NCBI GenBank assembly: GCA_900548415.1
Contig: URKO01000028.1
Span: forward strand, 1 to 9,185
DNA length: 9,185 nucleotides
Direction: 5' to 3'
DNA from: an uncultured Porphyromonas sp.
GTDB taxonomy: Bacteria > Bacteroidota > Bacteroidia > Bacteroidales > Porphyromonadaceae
Below, one piece after another: positions 134 through 9,185 of this stretch (positions are counted from its first letter, which is position 1; the number at the start of each line of letters is the position of its first letter). The position numbers and the translations under genes were made by a program. The notes beneath the pieces were generated by a model, which had not been told where the DNA came from, did not search any database, and saw only the letters and a program-made list of their open reading frames with translations.

Positions 134-1207
134 ATGAATAAGAGTACACTCAAGGCTTTAGTCCTCATCGCCATCGCCCTTATGACTGCTAGCTGTGCCG
201 GCAAAGGTGGTCGGGTGACCGAGCTAGATGCAGCCGGAGCAACCTTTCCACTACCCTTCTATACCGAGGCTTTCAAAGCTTATGAGGCGCAGTCGGGTAT
301 ACATGTTAATTATGGAGCCGTAGGCAGCGGTGGTGGTATCCGTAGCCTCAAGGACGAAGTGGTGCACTTTGCCGCTACCGATGCTTTTCTATCTGATGCG
401 GAGATGGCCGAGATGCCGCGTCCGGTGGTTCACATACCGACCTGCATGGGAGCTGTCGTCATCGCTTACAACTGTCCTGAGATCTCGCAGCTAAACCTCA
501 CGGGAGAGATCATCGCCAACATTTATCTAGGCAAGATAACGCGCTGGAACGATCCGGCTATCGCTGCGATCAACCCCGACCAGAAGCTCCCCGACAAGGA
601 GATCTCACCCGTCTATCGCTCCGATGGTAGTGGCACGACGAATGTCTTCAGCGACTATCTGACGAAGGTGAGCACCGACTGGGCTACGCAGGTGGGTACG
701 GGCAAGTCGCTCAAGTGGCCTACCGGTATGGCTGCCAAGGGCAATCCAGGCGTCGCTGGCGTGATCGCACAGACCGATGGCGCGCTCGGATATGTAGGTA
801 GCGAGTACAGCTTCTCCCTAGACATACCGACAGCCATGGTACAGAATCAGGCTGGCAACTTCGTCCTCCCCTCGCTCGAGTCTATCTCTGCAGCGGCTGC
901 TGGCGAGGTAGCGTCCGACACCCGTCAGATGATCACTAACTCGTCACACCCAGACGCTTATCCTATCAGCTGTCTCACCTGGCTCATCGCCTACCAAGAG
1001 ATGCAGTACGACAACCACTCAGAGGCAGAAGCTGTCGAGACGGCTCGTCTACTCAACTGGATGCTGAGCGATGAGGCGCAGGCGATCACTTCGCAGATCC
1101 ACTTCGCACCGCTATCCGCTGAGATGGTCGCAGCAGCCAAGGCGCAGCTGGCTAAACTAACCTATGGCGGTAAGCCAATAGACCTAACTAGCACTCCTAA
1201 GGAGTAG
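134..1207 (+). CDS. pstS: Phosphate ABC transporter substrate-binding lipoprotein PstS
   Basis: PstS binds inorganic phosphate outside the inner membrane and delivers it to the PstCA channel. Residues 1-20 form a lipoprotein signal peptide (Lys3 and Lys7, then a hydrophobic run) ending in TASC, so Cys21 is the likely lipidated N-terminus. Phosphate-contact motifs of the family follow: AGATFPLPFY (34-43), the GSGGG loop (64-68), ATDAF (81-85) and RSDGSGTT (162-169), then a GNPGVAGV stretch (203-210) and GALGYVG (216-222). The 357-residue length is normal. The ATG has no Shine-Dalgarno sequence and lies in an A/T-rich leader, as is common in Bacteroidota. This is the first gene of the locus; a candidate Pho box lies upstream and a 178-nt structured spacer separates it from pstC. 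Nothing in the coding sequence looks damaged. Confidence 0.97.
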   Translation: MNKSTLKALVLIAIALMTASCAGKGGRVTELDAAGATFPLPFYTEAFKAYEAQSGIHVNYGAVGSGGGIRSLKDEVVHFAATDAFLSDAEMAEMPRPVVHIPTCMGAVVIAYNCPEISQLNLTGEIIANIYLGKITRWNDPAIAAINPDQKLPDKEISPVYRSDGSGTTNVFSDYLTKVSTDWATQVGTGKSLKWPTGMAAKGNPGVAGVIAQTDGALGYVGSEYSFSLDIPTAMVQNQAGNFVLPSLESISAAAAGEVASDTRQMITNSSHPDAYPISCLTWLIAYQEMQYDNHSEAEAVETARLLNWMLSDEAQAITSQIHFAPLSAEMVAAAKAQLAKLTYGGKPIDLTSTPKE

Positions 1208-1237
1208 CCCCCTTATTACACCTGAAAAACAAAAAGA

Positions 1238-1338
1238 ACGTCTCTCCTCCCCTCTCAACAGTAGTGCCGTCTGGATAGCTCCGATTAGTTAGTGAGTCGC
1301 ATCCGACCTGTACCGCTCTCTATTCGGAGGAGAGATGT
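1238..1338 (+). promoter_or_regulatory. pstS-pstC intergenic long-range stem
   Basis: The 178-nt spacer contains a 13-pair stem: 1238-1250 (ACGTCTCTCCTCC) pairs with 1326-1338 (GGAGGAGAGATGT), with a single G-U pair. The 75-nt loop holds a minor hairpin, GTCG (1296-1299) with CGAC (1304-1307). It is not a standard intrinsic terminator because no U-tract follows directly. A stable stem between a highly expressed binding-protein gene and its permease gene could protect the upstream mRNA or lower downstream expression. The 3' arm also contains a GGAGGA motif followed by an ATG. The pairing is seen directly; the role is inferred. Confidence 0.5.
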
Positions 1339-1373
1339 CTCTTTACCCTCCCCACCTACTCCTTATAATATAA
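1335..1373 (+). other. Possible 12-codon leader ORF before pstC
   Basis: An ATG at 1335 follows GGAGGA (1326-1331) and opens a 12-residue frame (MSLYPPHLLLII) ending with TAA at 1371-1373, 12 nt before the pstC ATG. It is in the pstC frame, but the stop prevents it from being an N-terminal extension. Its ribosome-binding motif and start codon lie inside the 3' arm of the long intergenic stem. Bacteroidota seldom rely on Shine-Dalgarno pairing, and so short a frame could be chance. Confidence 0.2.
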
Positions 1374-1385
1374 GCTCTGCCTATA

Positions 1386-2279
1386 ATGTCTACCCTCGTC
1401 CGTAAAGCGTCACGCCGCCCTATCGGCGACAAGATCTTCCGCGGTCTACTCACTAGCTCTGGGCTCCTCGTGCTACTGATCTGCCTAGCGATGCTGATCA
1501 GTTTGATTAGTAACAGCACGGAAGCCTTTAGTGAGTTTGGCTTCTTTCGCTTCATCTGCTCCTCCGAGTGGGACCCCACGGCTGGTCGGGAGCAGTATGG
1601 AGCGTTGCCCTTTATCGTGGGGACTGTGGTCACCTCGATACTAGCCTTGATCCTGTGCATCCCCTTCTCACTACCAGTGGCGCTCTTCATCGGGGAGTAC
1701 TTCAAGGGTAAGCGCATCGCCGGCGTCATACGTTCGCTGACGGATCTACTGGCAGGCATCCCCTCGATCGTGTATGGTCTGTGGGGCTTCTATACACTGC
1801 GTCCGCTCATTGACATGATCGATGGGCCACAGGGCAATGGCTACGGGATCCTCACTTCGGTGCTGATACTGACCGTCATGATCATCCCCTATGCCTCGTC
1901 GCTCACGGCAGAGTTTGTCATGCTCACCCCTAAGTCGCTCAAGGAGGCTGCCTACAGTCTCGGCGCCACCCGCACGGAGGTGATCGGATCGGTCATCCTG
2001 CCCAACGCACGGAGCGGTATCGTCGCAGCTTATATCCTCGCTCTGGGACGAGCTCTCGGTGAGACGATGGCGGTAACGATGCTGATCGGTAACACGGACA
2101 AGATACCCACATCGCTCTTTGACACGGGACAGAGTATGGCCTCGCTGATCGCTAACCAGTTCAACGAGGCGCACGGACTCAAGCTCAGTTCGCTCATAGC
2201 GATCGCTCTAGTCCTCTTCCTCATCACAGCCATCATCAACGGCATTGTGAAGATTATCCTAAACAAGAAACGAGCCTAA
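1386..2279 (+). CDS. pstC: Phosphate ABC transporter permease PstC
   Basis: PstC is one of the two inner-membrane channel subunits of the high-affinity phosphate importer. Hydrophobic segments lie near residues 22-42, 73-98, 120-140, 153-178, 208-235 and 266-292, giving the six-helix layout of the family. The PstC-typical AGIPSIVYG lies at 123-131. The cytoplasmic EAA coupling loop (KEAAYSLGATRTEVIG, 186-201) docks on PstB, and GRALGETMAV (221-230) follows. The length of 297 residues is ordinary. The ATG follows the short palindrome CTTATAATATAAG and no Shine-Dalgarno sequence. The pstA start is 9 nt after the stop, so the two are probably translated together. PstC and PstA are homologous; N-terminal motifs and order make this one PstC. 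Confidence 0.97.
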   Translation: MSTLVRKASRRPIGDKIFRGLLTSSGLLVLLICLAMLISLISNSTEAFSEFGFFRFICSSEWDPTAGREQYGALPFIVGTVVTSILALILCIPFSLPVALFIGEYFKGKRIAGVIRSLTDLLAGIPSIVYGLWGFYTLRPLIDMIDGPQGNGYGILTSVLILTVMIIPYASSLTAEFVMLTPKSLKEAAYSLGATRTEVIGSVILPNARSGIVAAYILALGRALGETMAVTMLIGNTDKIPTSLFDTGQSMASLIANQFNEAHGLKLSSLIAIALVLFLITAIINGIVKIILNKKRA

Positions 2280-2288
2280 CCTGAGACC

Positions 2289-3167
2289 ATGGCATCACTC
2301 AAAGTAAGACAGGGATGGGACCGCACGGTCTATCTAGTCAATATCGTACTCGCCTGCATCACCGTCATACCGCTCTTTCTCATCATCGGTAAGATCGTCC
2401 TAGAGGGGTACCAGCAGATCAACTGGGACTTCTTTACCAAGACGGCACCGACAGCTGTCGAGGCGATGATGGCTAAGCGCGCCAACACGATCGAAGGCTC
2501 TCGCACGATACTTCCAGGCGGTATCGCTAATGGTATCGTCGGCACCCTCCTCATGACCCTCGTAGCCTCTATCATCGCTATCCCCATAGGGCTCCTAGGC
2601 GGTATCTATCTCTCGGAGAATAGATCCACACGCCTCGCCAATGTAGTGCGCTTCGTCACGGACCTGCTACAAGGCACCCCCTCGATCGTCATCGGTATCA
2701 TCGTATACGCGTGGGTGGTACTGCCGATGCGAGGCTACTCGGCTCTAGCCGGTGCTGTGGCTCTGGCGATCATGATGCTACCGCTCATCATACGCTCTAC
2801 CGAGGAGACGCTGGCGCGACTGCCTAAGACCTTCAAAGAGTCGGCACTTGCTCTCGGATGCTCCTACCGCAAGATGGTGCTCAAGATCCTCCTCCCCTCT
2901 GCTATGGGTGGGCTGCTGACAGGCATCCTGCTAGCGGTGAGTCGTATCATCGGCGAGACGGCACCGCTCATCATGACCGCTCTAGGCAGTGCCCGCATAT
3001 CGTGGACGCTCGACACCCCTTCATCGGCCGTGCCGCTACTCATCTGGGAGTTTTACAGTGATCCCAACCTTCAGGAGATGATCTGGAGCTCTTCGCTCTT
3101 TCTCCTACTCCTAGTGCTCCTTCTAAACTTTATCGCCAAGCGTATCTCCGACCGGACACGCTACTAG
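2289..3167 (+). CDS. pstA: Phosphate ABC transporter permease PstA
   Basis: PstA is the second channel subunit and pairs with PstC in the membrane. Hydrophobic segments lie near residues 14-38, 80-108, 125-145, 150-172, 203-230 and 266-286. The EAA loop is FKESALALGCSYRKMVLKIL (182-201), the contact for PstB. DLLQGTPSIVIG (125-136) and SRIIGETAPL (218-227) are characteristic of PstA. The 292-residue length is normal. A loop between the first two helices (about 40-78) faces outside, where PstS would dock. The gene lies 9 nt after pstC and 23 nt before pstB, as expected for a co-transcribed transporter. No defect is visible. Confidence 0.97.
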   Translation: MASLKVRQGWDRTVYLVNIVLACITVIPLFLIIGKIVLEGYQQINWDFFTKTAPTAVEAMMAKRANTIEGSRTILPGGIANGIVGTLLMTLVASIIAIPIGLLGGIYLSENRSTRLANVVRFVTDLLQGTPSIVIGIIVYAWVVLPMRGYSALAGAVALAIMMLPLIIRSTEETLARLPKTFKESALALGCSYRKMVLKILLPSAMGGLLTGILLAVSRIIGETAPLIMTALGSARISWTLDTPSSAVPLLIWEFYSDPNLQEMIWSSSLFLLLLVLLLNFIAKRISDRTRY

Positions 3168-3190
3168 TAACTTCTTTTTTTGTCCAAAGC

Positions 3191-3979
3191 ATGACTCCAA
3201 ACTCTATACAGACGACAACGCCCGAAGTGGTCCTCCAGCTAGACAACGTAAGCATCTGGTACACTCCTGAGAAGAGTGCCGTGACCAATGTCTCTGCGGA
3301 GATCTACGACCACGAGATCACCGCCATCATGGGCCCCAGTGGTTGTGGCAAGAGTACCCTGCTACGTGCCATCAATCGTATGCACGAGCTTTACCCTGGC
3401 ATACGTACCGACGGGCGCATCCTCCTACAGGGAGAGAATATCTTAGAGAAAGACCCGATGGTCGTCCGTCGTATGGCGGGTATGGTCTTCCAGCAGCCGA
3501 ACCCCTTCCCGACGATGAGCATCGCCGACAATGTGATGGCGGGCTACAAGCTCAACGGCATCAAGGTCTCCAAAGCGCAGCGCGAAGAGATCCTCACCAC
3601 CTCTCTGCAGTCGGTCGGACTCTGGGAGGAGGTCAAGGACAGACTAGACAAGCGTGGCTCCTTCCTCTCGGGGGGACAGCAACAGCGTCTATGCATCGCT
3701 CGTGCCTTGGCACTGCGTCCTCGGCTACTCCTGATGGACGAGCCGACCTCCGCACTAGACCCGATAGCGACCAATCGCATCGAGGAGCTGATCCTAGAGC
3801 TCAAGAAGGAGATAGCCATCCTCATCGTCACACACAATATGGGGCAGGCGGCACGCATATCCGACCGCTCGATGTTTATGTATCTCGGTGAGCTGGTCGA
3901 GTATGACCGCACCGACAAGATGTTTACCAACCCCAGCGATCAGCGCACCGAGGACTACCTACAGGGCAACTTCGGATAA
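3191..3979 (+). CDS. pstB: Phosphate ABC transporter ATP-binding protein PstB
   Basis: PstB is the cytoplasmic ATPase that powers phosphate import through PstCA. All ABC motifs are intact: Walker A GPSGCGKST (48-56), Q-loop within FQQPNPFP (100-107, a PstB hallmark), signature LSGGQ (159-163), Walker B LLLMDE (179-184) with catalytic Glu184, D-loop SALD (187-190) and the switch His215 in VTHNM. The 262-residue length fits the family. A short N-terminal tail of about 12 residues precedes the first beta strand. The start lies 23 nt after pstA behind a T-rich stretch without a Shine-Dalgarno sequence. phoU follows after 73 nt, the usual transporter-to-signalling order. Confidence 0.98.
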   Translation: MTPNSIQTTTPEVVLQLDNVSIWYTPEKSAVTNVSAEIYDHEITAIMGPSGCGKSTLLRAINRMHELYPGIRTDGRILLQGENILEKDPMVVRRMAGMVFQQPNPFPTMSIADNVMAGYKLNGIKVSKAQREEILTTSLQSVGLWEEVKDRLDKRGSFLSGGQQQRLCIARALALRPRLLLMDEPTSALDPIATNRIEELILELKKEIAILIVTHNMGQAARISDRSMFMYLGELVEYDRTDKMFTNPSDQRTEDYLQGNFG

Positions 3980-4040
3980 AACGTCGTACCTTAGATCTGC
4001 CATACAGACAGACACTCACACGATCAAGTAAAAAACGTAA

Positions 4041-4059
4041 CTGTCACAGCCTATGTCAC
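4041..4059 (+). promoter_or_regulatory. Possible second PhoB-like site at the phoU start
   Basis: CTGTCAC (4041-4047) is a close match to the E. coli Pho half-site, and ATGTCAC (4053-4059) follows with a 12-bp rather than 11-bp period. The second copy contains the phoU start codon. The nearby GTAAC and GTCACAGC segments also occur upstream of pstS, but with different spacing. A site overlapping the start codon would be unusual for an activator, so chance is quite possible. Confidence 0.2.
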
Positions 4060-4790
4060 CCAATATGGATCACCACGTCGTCCTGATCAAGGAAGACTTC
4101 AACGTACTCAACAAAGTGATCGCTCGCCAAGTAGAGATCATACAGCAGCTCCTCAGCGGGATCGTCGAGCCTGACGACTACGAGCACATCGAGATGAATG
4201 AGACGATCATAGATAGCCTAGAGGTCAAGATAAGGAGCGAGGTCATCAACGGGATCGTACTCTACACCCCTCGCGCCTCTGAGGCTAGGCGTATGTTTGC
4301 CCTGCACGATATGACCAGCTATCTAGAGCGCATCGGTGATCTGCTGCTCAATGTAGCCAACTTCACCCGTACGATCGACTCTAGCAATGGACTCTACCTC
4401 CAGTACGCTGGTACGCTACACGAGATGCTCTCGGAGACTTATCAGATGGTCACCGACGCGGTCACTTCGTTCTTTGCCGGAGACTCTGACCTCTCGCGAC
4501 GAGTCATCCGTCGAGACACCCATGTAGACGATCTACACTATCAGATCAACGACTCGCTGCCCCAGGCACTCCTAGATGCGGAGCAGACTCCCGACGTAGA
4601 CTCCATACAGGCTTCACTGGCAATCAGTAGCATAGCCTACAATCTGGAGCGCATCGGCGACAATGCGACAAACATCGCCGAGGCGGCTATCTTCCATTCA
4701 GAAGGCAAGAACCTACTACACGCTAAGAGTCAAAAAGTAGAGATCCCCACCGAACAAGAGCTAGATAACTATGGACAAGAAGAAGTTTAG
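4053..4790 (+). CDS. phoU: Phosphate signalling protein PhoU
   Basis: PhoU is a peripheral cytoplasmic protein that restrains phosphate uptake and keeps PhoR in its repressing state when phosphate is sufficient. The 245-residue protein has the duplicated helical-bundle plan of the family. The metal-binding signature LERIGD occurs twice, at 91-96 and 198-203, one per repeat. The sequence outside these motifs is divergent from the enterobacterial protein, so the assignment rests on the repeats, size and position between pstB and the regulator genes. The last 20 nt overlap the start of the response-regulator gene in another frame, which suggests translational coupling. The ATG at 4053 is the first in frame; Met5 is an alternative start. 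Confidence 0.93.
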   Translation: MSPNMDHHVVLIKEDFNVLNKVIARQVEIIQQLLSGIVEPDDYEHIEMNETIIDSLEVKIRSEVINGIVLYTPRASEARRMFALHDMTSYLERIGDLLLNVANFTRTIDSSNGLYLQYAGTLHEMLSETYQMVTDAVTSFFAGDSDLSRRVIRRDTHVDDLHYQINDSLPQALLDAEQTPDVDSIQASLAISSIAYNLERIGDNATNIAEAAIFHSEGKNLLHAKSQKVEIPTEQELDNYGQEEV

Positions 4791-5472
4791 ACTACTCCTC
4801 GTCGATGATGAGGAGGACCTCCGAGAGATACTCACCTTCAACCTCGCTGGCGAGGGATACCAAGTCTCCACAGCGGCCAACGCTGAGGAGGCACTCAAGA
4901 TGCCACTCGAGGAGTATCACCTACTCATCCTCGACGTGATGATGCCTGGCATGAGCGGCTTCAAGCTCGCTGAGGTCATACGACGGGAGAAGAAGCTCAC
5001 CACACCCATCATCTTCCTCACTGCCAAGGATACTGAAAACGATCTCCTCACGGGCTTTAACATCGGAGCCGACGACTATATGGCGAAGCCTTTCTCTATC
5101 AAAGAGCTACAGGCGCGTGTCCAAGCGGTTCTCATGCGCTCCCTGCAGGGCGGACTAGACTTCGAAGAGAGTCAGATAGAGATTGGCACGCTCCTCATTG
5201 ACCTAGATACCAAGCAGGTCTTCGTCAATGGCGAGCCTATCGATCTAACCAAGAAGGAGCTCGAGATACTCATCTTACTGGCACGCGACCCCAGCAAGGT
5301 CTTCTCACGTGAGGAGATCCTCGACCGCGTGTGGCGAGAGGATGTATTCGTTATGGAGCGCACCATCGACGTACATATCACCCGCATACGCAAGAAGCTA
5401 CGTGGCAGCGGGATCAAGATCATCAACCGCTCAGGCTTCGGCTATTGCCTCGTCGAGGAGGAGGCGCAGTAG
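4771..5472 (+). CDS. phoB: PhoB-type OmpR-family response regulator
   Basis: This is a two-domain transcription factor expected to be phosphorylated by the adjacent kinase and to activate phosphate-starvation genes. The receiver domain (about 5-121) has the acidic pair Asp12/Asp13, phospho-acceptor Asp55 in LILDVMMPG, switch Thr84, Tyr103 and Lys106 in YMAKPF. The C-terminal winged helix (about 133-230) carries an LTKKELEIL stretch and a recognition helix near ERTIDVHITRIRKKL (196-210). The final wing reads GFGYCL, where many relatives have G-x-GYRL. The 233-residue length is standard. The start overlaps the end of phoU by 20 nt. The PhoB name is inferred from the pst-phoU context; sequence alone shows only the OmpR/PhoB family. 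Confidence 0.92.
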   Translation: MDKKKFRLLLVDDEEDLREILTFNLAGEGYQVSTAANAEEALKMPLEEYHLLILDVMMPGMSGFKLAEVIRREKKLTTPIIFLTAKDTENDLLTGFNIGADDYMAKPFSIKELQARVQAVLMRSLQGGLDFEESQIEIGTLLIDLDTKQVFVNGEPIDLTKKELEILILLARDPSKVFSREEILDRVWREDVFVMERTIDVHITRIRKKLRGSGIKIINRSGFGYCLVEEEAQ

Positions 5473-5514: not shown

Positions 5515-7335
5515 ATGAGTCAGTACAACTATAAGTCCAAAGTCCTTATCTCCGCAGCCCTGCTCTTTATCCTCTTTGGCGGGATCATCTACTTCGTACA
5601 GCGTGCCTCCGAAAAGGAGATCAAGACCAAAGCTCTCGTATCATACCTCGAGCAGGCCGCCGACTGTGTCGATAGTTACATAGCAGACTACGAAGCACAC
5701 CCGCAGGTGCCAGGGCGTGACTCGCTCTCAGCCTTTAGCAACTGGCCTGATCAGAAGAATCTAGGGCACTTCTTATCCTACCTCCCGGACAATCTACGCT
5801 TTACGATCATCAACCTAAAGGGCGACGTCTACTTTGACAACGTCACCCAGGGGTCAATCCCTGAGAACCACCTCTCACGCATAGAACTACAACAGGCTAA
5901 CCTCAATGGCACTGGCACCTCCAAGCGGTATAGCGAGACGCTCGGTGAGGACTTCTACTACTTTGCCAAGCAGTACAAAGATCAGGGGTACTACATCCGT
6001 GTAGCTATACCCTACCATATAGACTATGTCAACTACTTTCGCTCGAATCACTTCTTCCTCCTCCTCATCGTTGGCATCTTCAGCCTAGCACTGCTGGCGG
6101 TGGTTTTCTTTACCGACCAATTCTCTCGCTCCGTGCGTAAGCTACACGACTTTGTAGCGAAGGCTCAGGCTGGTGAGGAGTACGAGTCTGTCACTTTTCC
6201 CAAGAGTGAGATCGGAGAGCTGGGGGAGCAGCTCAAGAAGATCTTTAAGATGCTCGAGGAGAGCAACACACGCTACGAGATCGAGCGCGAGAAGCTCATA
6301 CAGCACTTCGCTAGCTCCGACGCTGGCATCTCTTTCTTTAGTGCGGAGAGCAAGTTTATCTATGCCAATAGCCACTTCATACAGAATCTCAACACCCTCG
6401 TCGACACCCCTACCTTTATCATCGACGAGCGCATCCTCGACTACCCAGAGCTTTACCAGGTCAAGACGCTTCTAGCCGACCAAGAGGCTCGCCCAGGTGC
6501 CGCTCCGCGCTCCACACGATACATCATCGACAAGGACGGGGCGCATATAGAGGTGCGCGCCCAGTTCTTCCCAGACAATAGCTTTGAGATCGTCCTGACC
6601 AATGTGACTAAGAAGGAAAACGATCGTCGCCTCAAGCACGACATGACCAATAGCATCGCCCACGAGCTACGCACGCCGGTCACTTGCGCCCGTGGTTACC
6701 TCGAGACAATACTCAACCAGCCACTCCCTGAGGAGAAGCAGCGCTACTTCATCGAGCGGACGTACAATCAGATGATCCGTCTCTCACAGCTCATCAGCGA
6801 CGTCTCTATGATCACCAAGCTGGAGGAGGCGAGCGACCTCTACGCCCTACAAGAGCTAACCCCGTACAGTGTCGTCGAGGAGGTCAAAGCAGCCCTAGAG
6901 ATCAAGCTACAAGAGGCGCAGATGACCATCTGCAATCGAATACCCGAGCAGACCACCGTACAGGCCAATCACTCGCTACTCTATGCTGTCTTTGCCAATC
7001 TGACGGAGAATAGCATCCGCTACGCTGGCTCTGGCACCACTATAGAGATCGATCAGACGATGGAGGACGAGCGCTACTACTACTTCACCTTTGCCGACAA
7101 CGGTCCTGGCATCCCCGAGAGCGAGAGCCTGGCTAAGATCTTCGAGCGCTTCTACCGCATCGATGAGGGTCGCAGTCGTGAGATGGGCGGATCAGGACTG
7201 GGCCTCTCCATCGTACGCAATGCTATCCGCTTCCACGGTGGCGAAATCTCAGCAAAGAACAGACCCACGGGAGGTCTCGAGTTCTTCTTCTCGCTAGCCA
7301 AGAGTACCCCCGACAAGACAGCCCAAGCGCACTAG
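5515..7335 (+). CDS. phoR: PhoR-type membrane sensor histidine kinase
   Basis: This kinase is expected to phosphorylate and dephosphorylate the PhoB encoded just upstream. Order of parts: first membrane helix (about 10-28); extracytoplasmic domain of about 150 residues (29-177) containing the PAS-like strand RFTIINLKGDVYFDN (95-109); second helix (179-199); HAMP linker (about 200-250); cytoplasmic PAS-like region (about 256-366); and HisKA with phospho-acceptor His383 in HELRTP. The ATPase domain follows, with N-box Asn495/Asn499, G1 DNGPGI (528-533), F-box FERFYR (543-548) and G2 GGSGLGLSIV (558-567). All catalytic boxes are intact. At 606 residues it is longer than E. coli PhoR, chiefly because of the outer sensor domain, which resembles Gram-positive PhoR architecture. 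It starts 42 nt after phoB and precedes a terminator-like hairpin. Confidence 0.92.
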   Translation: MSQYNYKSKVLISAALLFILFGGIIYFVQRASEKEIKTKALVSYLEQAADCVDSYIADYEAHPQVPGRDSLSAFSNWPDQKNLGHFLSYLPDNLRFTIINLKGDVYFDNVTQGSIPENHLSRIELQQANLNGTGTSKRYSETLGEDFYYFAKQYKDQGYYIRVAIPYHIDYVNYFRSNHFFLLLIVGIFSLALLAVVFFTDQFSRSVRKLHDFVAKAQAGEEYESVTFPKSEIGELGEQLKKIFKMLEESNTRYEIEREKLIQHFASSDAGISFFSAESKFIYANSHFIQNLNTLVDTPTFIIDERILDYPELYQVKTLLADQEARPGAAPRSTRYIIDKDGAHIEVRAQFFPDNSFEIVLTNVTKKENDRRLKHDMTNSIAHELRTPVTCARGYLETILNQPLPEEKQRYFIERTYNQMIRLSQLISDVSMITKLEEASDLYALQELTPYSVVEEVKAALEIKLQEAQMTICNRIPEQTTVQANHSLLYAVFANLTENSIRYAGSGTTIEIDQTMEDERYYYFTFADNGPGIPESESLAKIFERFYRIDEGRSREMGGSGLGLSIVRNAIRFHGGEISAKNRPTGGLEFFFSLAKSTPDKTAQAH

Positions 7336-7339
7336 TTCA

Positions 7340-7369
7340 GGCCGATCGTTGCGGTCGGCTCTTGTCTTA
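7340..7369 (+). terminator. Rho-independent-like terminator after phoR
   Basis: GCCGATCG (7341-7348) pairs with CGGTCGGC (7352-7359) through eight pairs, one of them G-U, around the 3-nt loop TTG. A further wobble pair extends it at 7340/7360. The T-rich tail CTTGTCTT (7361-7368) follows directly. It starts four bases after the phoR stop and would end the pst-pho transcript. The tail is not a pure T-run, so efficiency is uncertain. Confidence 0.6.
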
Positions 7370-7386
7370 CCCTGAAAAAAGTTGAC
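7370..7386 (+). repeat. Left terminal inverted repeat of the IS3-family element
   Basis: CCCTGAAAAAAGTTGAC pairs with the right repeat at 15 of 17 positions. Its internal TGA matches the usual first bases of IS3-family ends, so the true tip may be at 7373 rather than 7370. It lies 18 nt before the orfA start. Confidence 0.65.
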
Positions 7387-7403
7387 TCGTAAGTAATATA
7401 ACT

Positions 7404-7823
7404 ATGAGTACAATGAAACAGACAAAAGACACGAAGTCGAAGCCCACGAAGGGATCAACAAATCGCCCAACCAAGGGACATGCCACAACGGCCGAACGGC
7501 TTGAGGCACTCAAGCGCTACTACGTAAATGGCTATTCAATCAAGATTCTAGCGAGCCAGTATCAGGTAACATCATGTACGATTCGCAATTGGATTCGTAT
7601 CTTTGAGCAAGAAAACCCTGAAGTGGCTAAAGCTATGAACAAAAAGAGAATACCCCCACAAGGCACCTCCTCTGAGGAACTCAGCAAGGACGACTATGTC
7701 GCTCTGAAAGCACGTATCATGGAGCTCGAAAAAGCTCTTGACCAAGCCTGCTTAGAGCGAGATGTCTTCAAGACCTGCTTGGAGGTGTACAGCATCGATG
7801 AGCAAAAAAAAAATGGCCACTAG
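7404..7823 (+). CDS. IS3-family transposase subunit OrfA
   Basis: OrfA supplies the DNA-recognition part of the transposase. After a basic, Lys/Thr-rich N-terminus (1-27), residues 30-66 form a helix-turn-helix: AERLEALKRYY, then SIKILASQYQV and the probable recognition helix TSCTIRNWIRIFEQ. Residues 97-127 have the heptad-like pattern of the family's leucine zipper (Leu101, Ile105, Leu108, Leu112). The 139-residue product is somewhat longer than many OrfA proteins because of the N-terminal tail. Its last codons run through ten consecutive A bases and stop at 7821-7823, in the 0 frame relative to orfB in the -1 frame. Made alone, OrfA typically acts as a repressor or inhibitor in this family. 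Met4 is an alternative start. Confidence 0.88.
   Translation: MSTMKQTKDTKSKPTKGSTNRPTKGHATTAERLEALKRYYVNGYSIKILASQYQVTSCTIRNWIRIFEQENPEVAKAMNKKRIPPQGTSSEELSKDDYVALKARIMELEKALDQACLERDVFKTCLEVYSIDEQKKNGH
7802..7823 (+). promoter_or_regulatory. Programmed -1 frameshift (or slippage) window, A10
   Basis: Ten A bases (7804-7813) lie near the end of orfA. The orfB frame is closed just upstream by TGA at 7799-7801, and the orfA frame closes at 7821-7823. Any shift must therefore happen in this 22-nt window, which is almost filled by the slippery run. A -1 shift reads KK-WPLVV into orfB and gives a fusion of about 462 residues. IS3 elements commonly make OrfAB this way; transcriptional slippage on A10 would give the same result. 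Confidence 0.8.
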
Positions 7824-7825
7824 TT

Positions 7826-8791
7826 GTGACAGCTGTGAAAGATCAATATGAACATCCAATCAAGCAGGTCTGCAAGGCACTGAACAAGAGTCCACAAGCC
7901 TATTACAAGTACCTCAAGTCCGACACGCCCTTGAGAGAATCTGAGCTTGAGTTTATAGTGATAAGCTATATTGTGGAAGCACGTAAAAGCAATCCAGGTA
8001 TTGGAGGCGTATCGCTTTGGATGCAGTATTGCAGGGAGTGGGGAGCCCGCTATCCCGTTGGCAGAGATAAGTTTGTGAGCTACATACGCAAGCACAAGCT
8101 CTACGTCCGCATACCGAGGCGCTACAAAGCTCCCCGCACCACGGACTCCAGCCACGACCAGCCCACCTACCCCAACCTCGTTCGGGACCTTATCCCCGAT
8201 GGTCCAAATCAGGTGTGGAGCAGCGACATCACCTACATCCCCTTGGAGCGAGGGGACAACAGGGTTGAGTTCTGCTTCTTATCCCTGATTTTGGATAACT
8301 ATACGAAGGAGATTGTGGGCTATAGTCTAGGGGACAGTCTCGCCTCAGAATACCCCTGCGAGGCACTAAAGCAAGCCCTCAAGCGGCTCCCTAGAAAGGA
8401 CGCTTCCGATCTCATTCACCACTCCGACAGAGGCACTCAATATGCCAGTCTGCAGTATACTAAGATACTCAAGAAAAGAGGAATACAGATCAGCATGACA
8501 GAGTCAGGAGAACCCAAAGAGAACTCCCAGTCAGAGCGGGTGAACAGCACCATTAAGAACGAACTCTTAATGGGCAAAGTGTTCCATAACATCTCTGAAG
8601 CGGAAAGTGCAATCAGCAAAGCTATAGAGACTTACAACACTACTCGCCCTCATATGAGCATCGACTATATGACCCCACAAGAAGCTAGGGAATGTACGGG
8701 TCCCCTGAAGAAGCGATGGCGCAGCTATCGTGAAGACGCGATTCAGAAAGCTCGAAAAGACAAAGAGTCAAAGGAGCTAGTAACCAGCTAA
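7826..8791 (+). CDS. IS3-family transposase catalytic subunit OrfB
   Basis: OrfB carries the RNase H-like integrase domain that cuts and joins the element's ends, normally as the OrfAB fusion. The N-terminal part (about 10-100) holds a helical DNA-binding region with the family-like LNKSPQAYYKYL (19-30) and NPGIGGVSLW (56-65). The catalytic triad is Asp134 in WSSDITYIP, Asp201 in HHSDRGTQYAS and Glu237 in SQSERVNSTIK. Exactly 35 residues separate the last two, and Lys244 lies seven after Glu237: a DD(35)E core with the IS3-type lysine. TYNTTRPHMSIDYMTPQEA (269-287) is the usual C-terminal block. The GTG at 7826 is only a nominal start two bases after the orfA stop; expression through the A10 shift is more likely. 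The frame looks intact, so activity is possible. Confidence 0.93.
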   Translation: MTAVKDQYEHPIKQVCKALNKSPQAYYKYLKSDTPLRESELEFIVISYIVEARKSNPGIGGVSLWMQYCREWGARYPVGRDKFVSYIRKHKLYVRIPRRYKAPRTTDSSHDQPTYPNLVRDLIPDGPNQVWSSDITYIPLERGDNRVEFCFLSLILDNYTKEIVGYSLGDSLASEYPCEALKQALKRLPRKDASDLIHHSDRGTQYASLQYTKILKKRGIQISMTESGEPKENSQSERVNSTIKNELLMGKVFHNISEAESAISKAIETYNTTRPHMSIDYMTPQEARECTGPLKKRWRSYREDAIQKARKDKESKELVTS

Positions 8792-8827
8792 ATAGAACTT
8801 ATATCAGCAAATAAAGAAGAGACTGGA

Positions 8828-8961
8828 TTTTTCATTTTCAATCGGAACACAAAGAGCGGCAATGCACCTGACACACCAAACGCCCTCCGCTATGCTACAG
8901 GCGTTTGGCTTAGTCAGTTGCATTACCAACGGGGTGTTTGTCCGATTTGAAAAAAGAAAAA
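8828..8961 (+). repeat. Very large imperfect hairpin in the IS tail
   Basis: Eight complementary blocks in nested order form about 44 base pairs: 8828-8833/8956-8961, 8835-8839/8949-8953, 8840-8846/8941-8947 (AATCGGA/TCCGATT), 8850-8853/8937-8940, 8858-8859/8926-8927, 8861-8866/8919-8924 (AATGCA/TGCATT), 8868-8872/8913-8917 (CTGAC/GTCAG) and 8876-8884/8900-8908 (CCAAACGCC/GGCGTTTGG). The apical loop is 15 nt (8885-8899). The T-rich arm is 5' and the A-rich arm 3', so it is not a normal terminator on either strand. It could be an RNA fold read through from orfB, a single-stranded DNA fold, or a small palindromic repeat (MITE-like) captured by the element. Confidence 0.7.
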
Positions 8962-8971
8962 AAACAAGCCC

Positions 8972-8996
8972 GGGGTATACCACGAAAAACTACCCC
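8972..8996 (+). repeat. Small hairpin GGGGTA/TACCCC
   Basis: GGGGTA (8972-8977) pairs perfectly with TACCCC (8991-8996) over a 13-nt A-rich loop. The 8-bp palindrome GGTATACC (8974-8981) overlaps the left arm. It lies 10 nt after the large hairpin and is not followed by a T-run. Confidence 0.4.
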
Positions 8997-9005
8997 AAAT
9001 TGCCA

Positions 9006-9022
9006 GAGTCAACTAAAATCAG
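9006..9022 (-). repeat. Second terminal-repeat-like sequence inside the IS tail
   Basis: GAGTCAACTAAAATCAG resembles the reverse complement of the left end (7372-7388): the GAGTCAAC block and the CAG block match at the same spacing, with the central A/T bases differing. It may be an internal transposase-binding site, or an older right end followed by extra DNA. Confidence 0.4.
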
Positions 9023-9080
9023 TATCTTTGAAAAAGTCAAGACAACTCATTCTAGTTTGACGACGAAAACGATGTCAACC

Positions 9081-9097
9081 GTCAACCATTTTCAGGG
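9081..9097 (-). repeat. Right terminal inverted repeat of the IS3-family element
   Basis: GTCAACCATTTTCAGGG is the reverse complement of the left end at 15 of 17 positions. The 7-mer GTCAACC is duplicated immediately upstream (9074-9080), giving a tandem pair that may be a double transposase contact. Confidence 0.65.
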
Positions 9098-9114
9098 AAC
9101 CACAACTAGATACT

Positions 9115-9185
9115 TTTTCCTCCTTTGGAAAGTTTATTTTCCTCCCTTGGAAAACTATTTTTCCTGCCTTGGAAATTTACTTTTC
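9115..9185. repeat. 22-bp tandem repeat array, cut by window end
   Basis: Three full units (9115-9136, 9137-9158, 9159-9180) and the first five bases of a fourth repeat with an exact 22-bp period. The conserved core is TTTTCCTCCCTTGGAAA, with one base change in each of units 1 and 3. It contains the inverted arms TTTTCC and GGAAA. The remaining 5 bp differ between units: GTTTA, ACTAT, TTTAC. The period equals about two helical turns and is iteron-like, so a protein-binding array is plausible. The array continues beyond the window, so copy number and neighbours are unknown. Confidence 0.85.

Follow-up and report, generated by a model that had tools for sequence, protein, structure and literature searches.

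The last 71 bases of the window (the whole 9,185-nucleotide stretch analysed, from an uncultured Porphyromonas sp.) are one copy of a repeat family dispersed in Porphyromonas, and the array that they form is real. We read this family of 22-bp palindromes as likely to act as a chain of hairpins in non-coding RNA and perhaps also as a site where IS3-type insertion sequences land, and we put the probability of this reading at roughly 0.55. The nearest known kinds are the BOX and BIME repeats and the 77-bp inverted-repeat (77bpIR) element of P. gingivalis, so that the best short description is a BOX/BIME-like interspersed hairpin repeat, likely working at the RNA level and possibly an IS landing site. 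The analysis defines the geometry and lists the loci of a repeat which, in the excerpted literature, had been seen in P. gingivalis only as the internal inverted repeat of one regulatory RNA.

The array at the end of the window

The sequence-only reading had proposed an array of three-plus units with an exact 22-bp period, and both direct reading and Tandem Repeats Finder (9115-9185, period 22, 3.2 copies) bear it out. Two exact 38-bp pairs are found in the window, and such pairs were present in 0 of 1000 first-order Markov resamples of it. The 5-bp linkers between the cores are all distinct, again as that reading had said, and its constant 17-bp core stands as far as the arms are concerned; two loop positions vary, and the cores are not identical in all units. 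By reading, the three loops (TCCTTT, TCCCTT and TGCCTT) all satisfy the heterotypic rule for position 7 that is described below. The single-strand folding z-score was -3.0 for the array as it stands, cut by the window edge.

Table 1. Features of the window, with coordinates counted from its first base.
Feature	Position	Strand	Remarks
22-bp-period imperfect-palindrome array	9115..9185	.	three complete units plus part of a fourth, ending at the window edge
Unit 1 core TTTTCCTCCTTTGGAAA	9115..9131	.	followed by linker GTTTA
Unit 2 core TTTTCCTCCCTTGGAAA	9137..9153	.	followed by linker ACTAT
Unit 3 core TTTTCCTGCCTTGGAAA	9159..9175	.	followed by linker TTTAC
Unit 4, first five bases TTTTC	9181..9185	.	
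Phosphate-uptake cluster: PstS-type binding protein, two permeases, ABC ATPase, PhoU, response regulator	134..5472	+	context only
PhoR sensor kinase gene	5515..7335	+	
Terminator-like stem-loop behind phoR, just ahead of the IS	7340..7360	+	consensus match only
IS3-family insertion sequence, ends TGTCTTACCCTGAAAA and TTTTCAGGGAACCACA	7363..9104	+	ends read from IS copies
IS OrfA, helix-turn-helix transposase part	7404..7823	+	
IS OrfB, integrase-core transposase	7826..8791	+	IS3 family, above NCBIfam cut-off

The window runs from the pst-phoU-phoR cluster through an IS3-family insertion sequence (IS) to the array, and the IS separates the phoR side from the array, with 10 bp between its right end (9104) and the array start (9115). 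The 3' side of phoR bears an array in two relatives, G028 (locus L096) and P. uenonis (L067). G028, a close relative, is 98% identical to the window across 1470 bp ending at position 7362, and it carries four full copies of the window IS (97-100%), with one more in P. uenonis. The left flank of the window IS is the phoR side, as in G028, and its right flank (ACTAGATAC plus the array) had no match among the loci examined. No target duplication is present, the right junction (9104-9114) being without a match to the left flank; this junction may stem from IS copies having recombined, from loss of DNA next to the IS or from a chimeric contig. The draft contigs L005 and L013, like the window itself, end within or just after 22-bp arrays, and arrays may therefore break Porphyromonas assemblies.

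Counterparts in other Porphyromonas genomes

Counterparts of the array were looked for in related genomes and found. Close core pairs, searched with a looser pattern (gaps of 2-12), occur in 11 of 26 Porphyromonas genomes, with 168 pairs in total, while a reversed-pattern control over the same 26 genomes returned none. The array-richest genome is G028, with 73 of the 168 pairs. Its arrays have 2 to 8 units each; many exceed four, so that the extension past the fourth unit on which the sequence-only reading had turned is common in this relative.

Geometry and covariation of the units

Along the arrays, the half-sites TTTCC and GGAAA alternate each 11 bp. Among 149 unique successive cores within 40 bp of each other, 142 were separated by a 6-base gap, two by 5 bases, one by 7, one by 17 and three by 28, as though a unit in between had degenerated; when neighbouring pairs with gaps of up to 16 bases are considered, the 22-bp period is kept in 142 of 145 unique pairs. 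Many G028 arrays start from a closed end like TTTTCCAAAAAC, followed by TTTCC-N6-GGAAA units, and some continue in 22-bp phase with GTTCC-N6-GGAAC units or with units such as ATCCC-N6-GGGAT. The arm changes between unit types are thus matched ones (TTTCC/GGAAA, GTTCC/GGAAC, ATCCC/GGGAT). A second end module, TTTTGGAACTCGTAT or TTTTGGAACTCATAT plus about 30 more bases, was represented by 26 distinct strings across the examined loci, and by reading a GATA-containing core near CAGCACGATACGA is common to 21 of these.

Covariation between the two halves of the palindrome was measured in 332 units from 55 arrays of five genomes (G005, G007, G028, G027 and G003), related by descent, which inflates the counts. 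Arm position 1 was paired in 267 of 332 units (shuffle mean 148, maximum 174) and arm position 3 in 294 (shuffle mean 250, maximum 264), while loop position 7 was paired in just 48 (shuffle mean 124, minimum 97). At positions 2, 4, 5, 6 and 8, pairing was about what the column make-up predicts. The 2-bit conservation of the arms is circular, because units were picked by exact arms, and we left it out of the evidence. Regarding loop position 7, a heterotypic rule emerged: an A was missing from both halves in 0 of 171 units (shuffle mean 32), and was present in both halves in 21 of 171 (shuffle mean 53). A simple hairpin does not explain this pattern. The matched arm changes, judged from the letters alone, would fit a hairpin at least as well as the site of one protein.

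Folding, genomic location and turnover

In seven relative arrays or strands, folding z-scores ranged from -3.9 to -7.1, better than shuffles, and in several of the predicted folds adjacent units pair, giving hairpins longer than one unit. Both strands fold well wherever both were tried, hence folding favours no strand.

Arrays are mostly intergenic. In G028, G007 and P. uenonis, 42 arrays had called neighbours; of these, 19 were in convergent, 18 in codirectional and 5 in divergent positions, against 29, 84 and 15, respectively, in 128 background gaps (Fisher P 0.009); here ORFs were called by length and not by a gene finder, the background gaps include array-bearing ones, and the count leaves out five arrays that overlap an ORF of at least 100 aa together with arrays that have no called neighbour on one side (e.g. 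L071).

Orthologous arrays from G028, G007, P. uenonis and an uncultured species differ by whole units, for example 5 versus 4 (L103/L053 and L101/L007). In 17 orthologous pairs with alignable flanks, the differing positions were 17/495 in arms (3.4%), 48/295 in loops (16%), 50/199 in linkers (25%) and 288/1748 in flanks (16.5%), figures that omit six pairs with a flank difference above 35%. Over all 23 measured pairs (25 were taken, and two had no array at the predicted place), the values were 58/762 (7.6%), 111/453 (24.5%), 115/322 (35.7%) and 579/2345 (24.7%), respectively; in both sets some loci are counted twice, and the target was required to have at least one exact core, which biases them toward conserved arms. 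Linkers therefore differ about 7 times more often than arms in the 17 pairs, and about 5 times in all 23. The sequence-only reading had asked whether the linkers drift as fast as the cores, and had argued for constraint on core and spacing over simple slippage; arms kept while linkers drift support this view.

We also searched for empty sites. Nine G028 arrays had no ortholog among the examined loci, and ten flank stretches taken from seven of them served as queries. The only clean empty site was that of L121 in G027, where the composite of 299 nt with its array in G028 corresponds to 25 nt at the orthologous site; the other inspected sites were rearranged, degenerate or one-sided. At the site of L098, G007 has other repeats in place and no exact core.

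Insertion sequences near arrays

Besides the window IS, a second IS3-like element (IS-b) is present in 12 long copies in G028 and 8 in G007. Using a limit of 120 bp, which was chosen after the loci had been seen, full IS copies lie near an exact-pair array in 3 of 15 cases in G028 and 2 of 8 in G007, a count that leaves out one interrupted long G028 IS-b copy 38 bp from an array; at a limit of 60 bp, the G007 figure is 0 of 8. A whole-genome null gave P values of 1.7e-5 (G028) and 7.4e-5 (G007), and a restricted null, with 12% or 8% of the genome open to insertion, gave 0.008-0.02 and 0.005-0.01, respectively. Since the excess is only modest against the intergenic-only null, the claim that arrays are landing sites is weakened. 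An uncontrolled inspection by eye placed at least 15 of 18 listed IS-b copies within about 60 bp of a palindromic repeat belonging to this family or to a second one, and all five copies of the window IS likewise have such a repeat within about 60 bp on a listed side. Some IS3-family elements are known to target REP palindromes (PMC1525189, excerpt).

The second palindromic family, with cores CCACGTGG and TTCCTCCGAAG, is dispersed in G028 and G007, repeatedly beside IS3-type elements, and was seen in the flanks of L182, L185, L187, L195, L198, L207 and L219. A repeat of about 175 bp starting GAGACTGTTGCA also lies near several arrays (L096:4209-4383, and similarly in L100, L102, L105, L106, L113 and L115); it resembles the MITEPgRS/ISPg4 ends given in the excerpted text of PMC4596501.

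Arrays inside the P. gingivalis 77bpIR element

Genome G010 was taken as P. gingivalis on the basis of 140 BrickBuilt sites and of a topoisomerase III/nucleotide-sugar gene order resembling the capsule locus, the gene ahead of the P. gingivalis capsule operon being a topoisomerase. Ten of the 11 examined G010 arrays lie inside sequence common to one repeated element, which supports the link to mobile DNA that the sequence-only reading had listed among its options: most examined P. gingivalis arrays are within a transposon-like element. The eleventh (L044:5001) is free-standing, behind apparently the same gene as the P. circumdentaria array. Both ends of the 77bpIR element are present in copies L043, L049 and L051, and those of L043 and L049 match the 77-nt inverted-repeat oligonucleotide of PMC3969353 (excerpt) at all but a few positions of the alignment, 71 columns being invariant. 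MITE700, considered as the host element, was dropped, as the ends match the 77-bp repeat oligonucleotides. The G010 copies hold arrays of 2 to 4 units with the 22-bp geometry of the family. In L043, the array constitutes the only internal inverted repeats found. This copy is bordered on one side by an ORF for topoisomerase III and on the other by two ORFs, one coding for a WecA-like transferase (a hit below the cut-off) and one for a UDP-ManNAc dehydrogenase.

According to the excerpts of PMC8757827, asSuGR is a 550-nt antisense RNA that arises inside the 77bpIR element and ends at the far 77-bp repeat; it has an internal 32-bp inverted repeat and acts in trans, and the chromosome has several copies of the element. 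Mapped per this published description, and across strains, one P. gingivalis array, that of L043, would fall within the capsule-locus asSuGR at nucleotides 307-388. The footprint reported for PG0720, at -365 to -314 relative to the PG0106 start, lies, by our own reckoning, about 300 bp from the array. The excerpted text of PMC8757827 yielded no wording on tandem, palindromic, direct or 22-bp repeats, and a search of the open literature for the array sequence matched only the element ends, in PMC3969353.

The window shares the array with this element and not the element itself. The start of the 77-bp terminal repeat (CAGGGCAATCGCATTT) is matched nowhere in the window when up to 3 mismatches are allowed, the far side of the array lying beyond the window, and none of the 27 array loci in G028 has the two 77-bp-type ends within 700 bp. 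The arrays of the P. gingivalis element also have a loop pattern and loop letters unlike those of other arrays. Given this different pattern and the lack of paired 77-bp ends in G028, the function of asSuGR may not carry over to free-standing arrays. A separate observation concerns L152 of P. uenonis, where an array unit is interrupted by a MITE with ends CAGGGCTGACGCATTATAAT, with a duplication of about 10 bp; this MITE has palindromic repeats of its own, and its ends resemble those of the P. gingivalis 77-bp repeat.

Comparison with known repeats

The family would work like a BOX-type composite repeat. In pneumococcal BOX elements, end modules enclose central modules whose number varies, stem-loops are predicted and convergent neighbours are in excess (PMC3049150, excerpt). 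Variable central modules and recurrent end modules in relatives, predicted stem-loops and the convergent excess are likewise found here, but the host is another one, in Porphyromonas the central module is a 22-bp palindrome kept strictly in phase, and half-units such as TTTTCCAAAAAC or TTTTGGAACTCGTAT close many of the arrays; the comparison is one of architecture and not of sequence, and the window array's own ends are truncated by the window edge or affected by the IS. The 77bpIR element is alike in that its G010 copies bear arrays of 22-bp geometry, the array being the only internal inverted repeat found in L043, whereas the window and G028 loci have the array without the paired 77-bp ends and so do not belong to that element. 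The REP/BIME repeats targeted by IS1397, ISKpn1 and ISPsy8 are also extragenic palindromes, some with IS3-family insertions (PMC1525189, excerpt), but the array-richest genome differs in having no Y1 transposase above the cut-off. Finally, the BrickBuilt minisatellite MITE of P. gingivalis is a tandem repeat of similar length in the same genus, but it has a 23-nt unit, AGAYCATARTATCCTCTCRTRTG (PMC4596501, excerpt), which matches nowhere in the window with up to 3 mismatches allowed and has no exact match in G028.

Other candidates were rejected. CRISPR arrays were discarded given that the linkers are nearly always 5-6 bases long and that several of them turn up in more than one array. The iteron array suggested by the sequence-only reading finds no support: arrays occupy many chromosomal intergenic sites, and the window genes are for phosphate uptake and transposition, with no replication initiator or other replication gene seen among them. 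A plasmid collection searched with the window gave no match. Five matches in a phage collection (21-27 bp, E 0.2-0.6) and one stretch with 31-bp spacing in viral contigs were taken as chance. No Rfam family was found in 7 relative loci at the gathering threshold, nor did window positions 7300-9185 give one with E-values of up to 1 allowed. The 188-bp Prevotella repeat PINSR was set apart by its excerpted description only.

Weighing the explanations

In the reading that we prefer, the array would be transcribed as part of a non-coding RNA and fold into a chain of hairpins, and these hairpins would be what selection keeps; free-standing arrays such as that of the window would act on transcripts of the flanking genes, and IS3-type insertion sequences might choose arrays as landing sites. 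RNA-level action is the most likely function, and for free-standing arrays it is a predicted one. Arrays could instead be selfish or neutral repeat DNA which spreads with MITEs and IS, grows and shrinks by recombination and brings no benefit to the host, an account that we consider possible, with the odds somewhat against it. It would accommodate the whole-unit turnover between species, the IS and MITE insertions in or at arrays, the L121 composite missing from the orthologous G027 site (25 nt versus 299) and the convergent bias, which in pneumococcal repeats is read as a sign of parasitic elements (PMC3049150, excerpt). It sits less easily with arms that are conserved at orthologous sites while linkers and loops drift, a pattern that gene conversion could also produce, and with the report that deletion of the element lowers capsule and A-LPS in P. 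gingivalis (PMC8757827, excerpt).

The strict phase of the arrays, with the 22-bp period in 142 of 149 neighbours, and the heterotypic rule obeyed by the half-sites are what one would expect if a dimeric or polymerising nucleoid protein coated one face of double-stranded DNA through 11-bp half-sites. In the excerpts of PMC3969353, the HU protein PG0121 indeed binds the 77-bp repeat of the array-holding P. gingivalis element; what it was reported to bind there is the terminal repeat and bulged or looped DNA, however, and not the array, and one protein would not easily tolerate the matched-pair arm changes between unit types. We therefore see such a protein-binding array as unlikely. A REP/REPIN family mobilised by a RAYT would share the short extragenic palindromes and the IS3-family insertions near some of them, as in REPs (PMC1525189, excerpt), but a Y1 transposase domain (PF01797) was above the cut-off in just 3 of 26 Porphyromonas genomes and absent from G028, the richest in arrays; RAYT was rejected as the mover on this account, and the whole explanation appears highly improbable. 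Extending the RNA reading further, one may picture a genus-wide network of structured non-coding RNA modules made of 22-bp heterotypic palindromes, with asSuGR as a module captured between transposon ends and the free-standing arrays as the ancestral regulatory form acting on neighbouring transcripts, a picture that is speculative and, in our judgement, quite unlikely. With orthologous arrays that differ by whole units, the role of that RNA structure becomes testable by comparison.

Occurrence of the geometry outside Porphyromonas

A gap-tolerant two-core pattern (gap 2 to 14) run over genome_contigs returned 13 stretches. Eight came from Porphyromonas (P. crevioricanis, P. circumdentaria, P. 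uenonis and one uncultured species), two from one uncultured Bacteroidetes bin, with a 21-bp period, and one from Pontibacter, with a period of 22; two cyanobacterial stretches were taken as chance. Among 395 sampled genomes of the class around P. uenonis, the 22-bp pair was found in two, P. uenonis itself and G060 (Bacteroidia), the latter with 29 pairs across 18 places. In all 10 of the places listed (of 18), the linker of G060 is CTTTAT and then CTTTTG. The geometry is thus patchy in its occurrence yet not confined to one genus. Most of the listed arrays at the G060 loci L134-L148 comprise three to four units, with linkers that stay constant and a middle loop that varies. The loci L002 and L008 of the uncultured Bacteroidetes bin have up to ten near-identical units with a 21-bp period.
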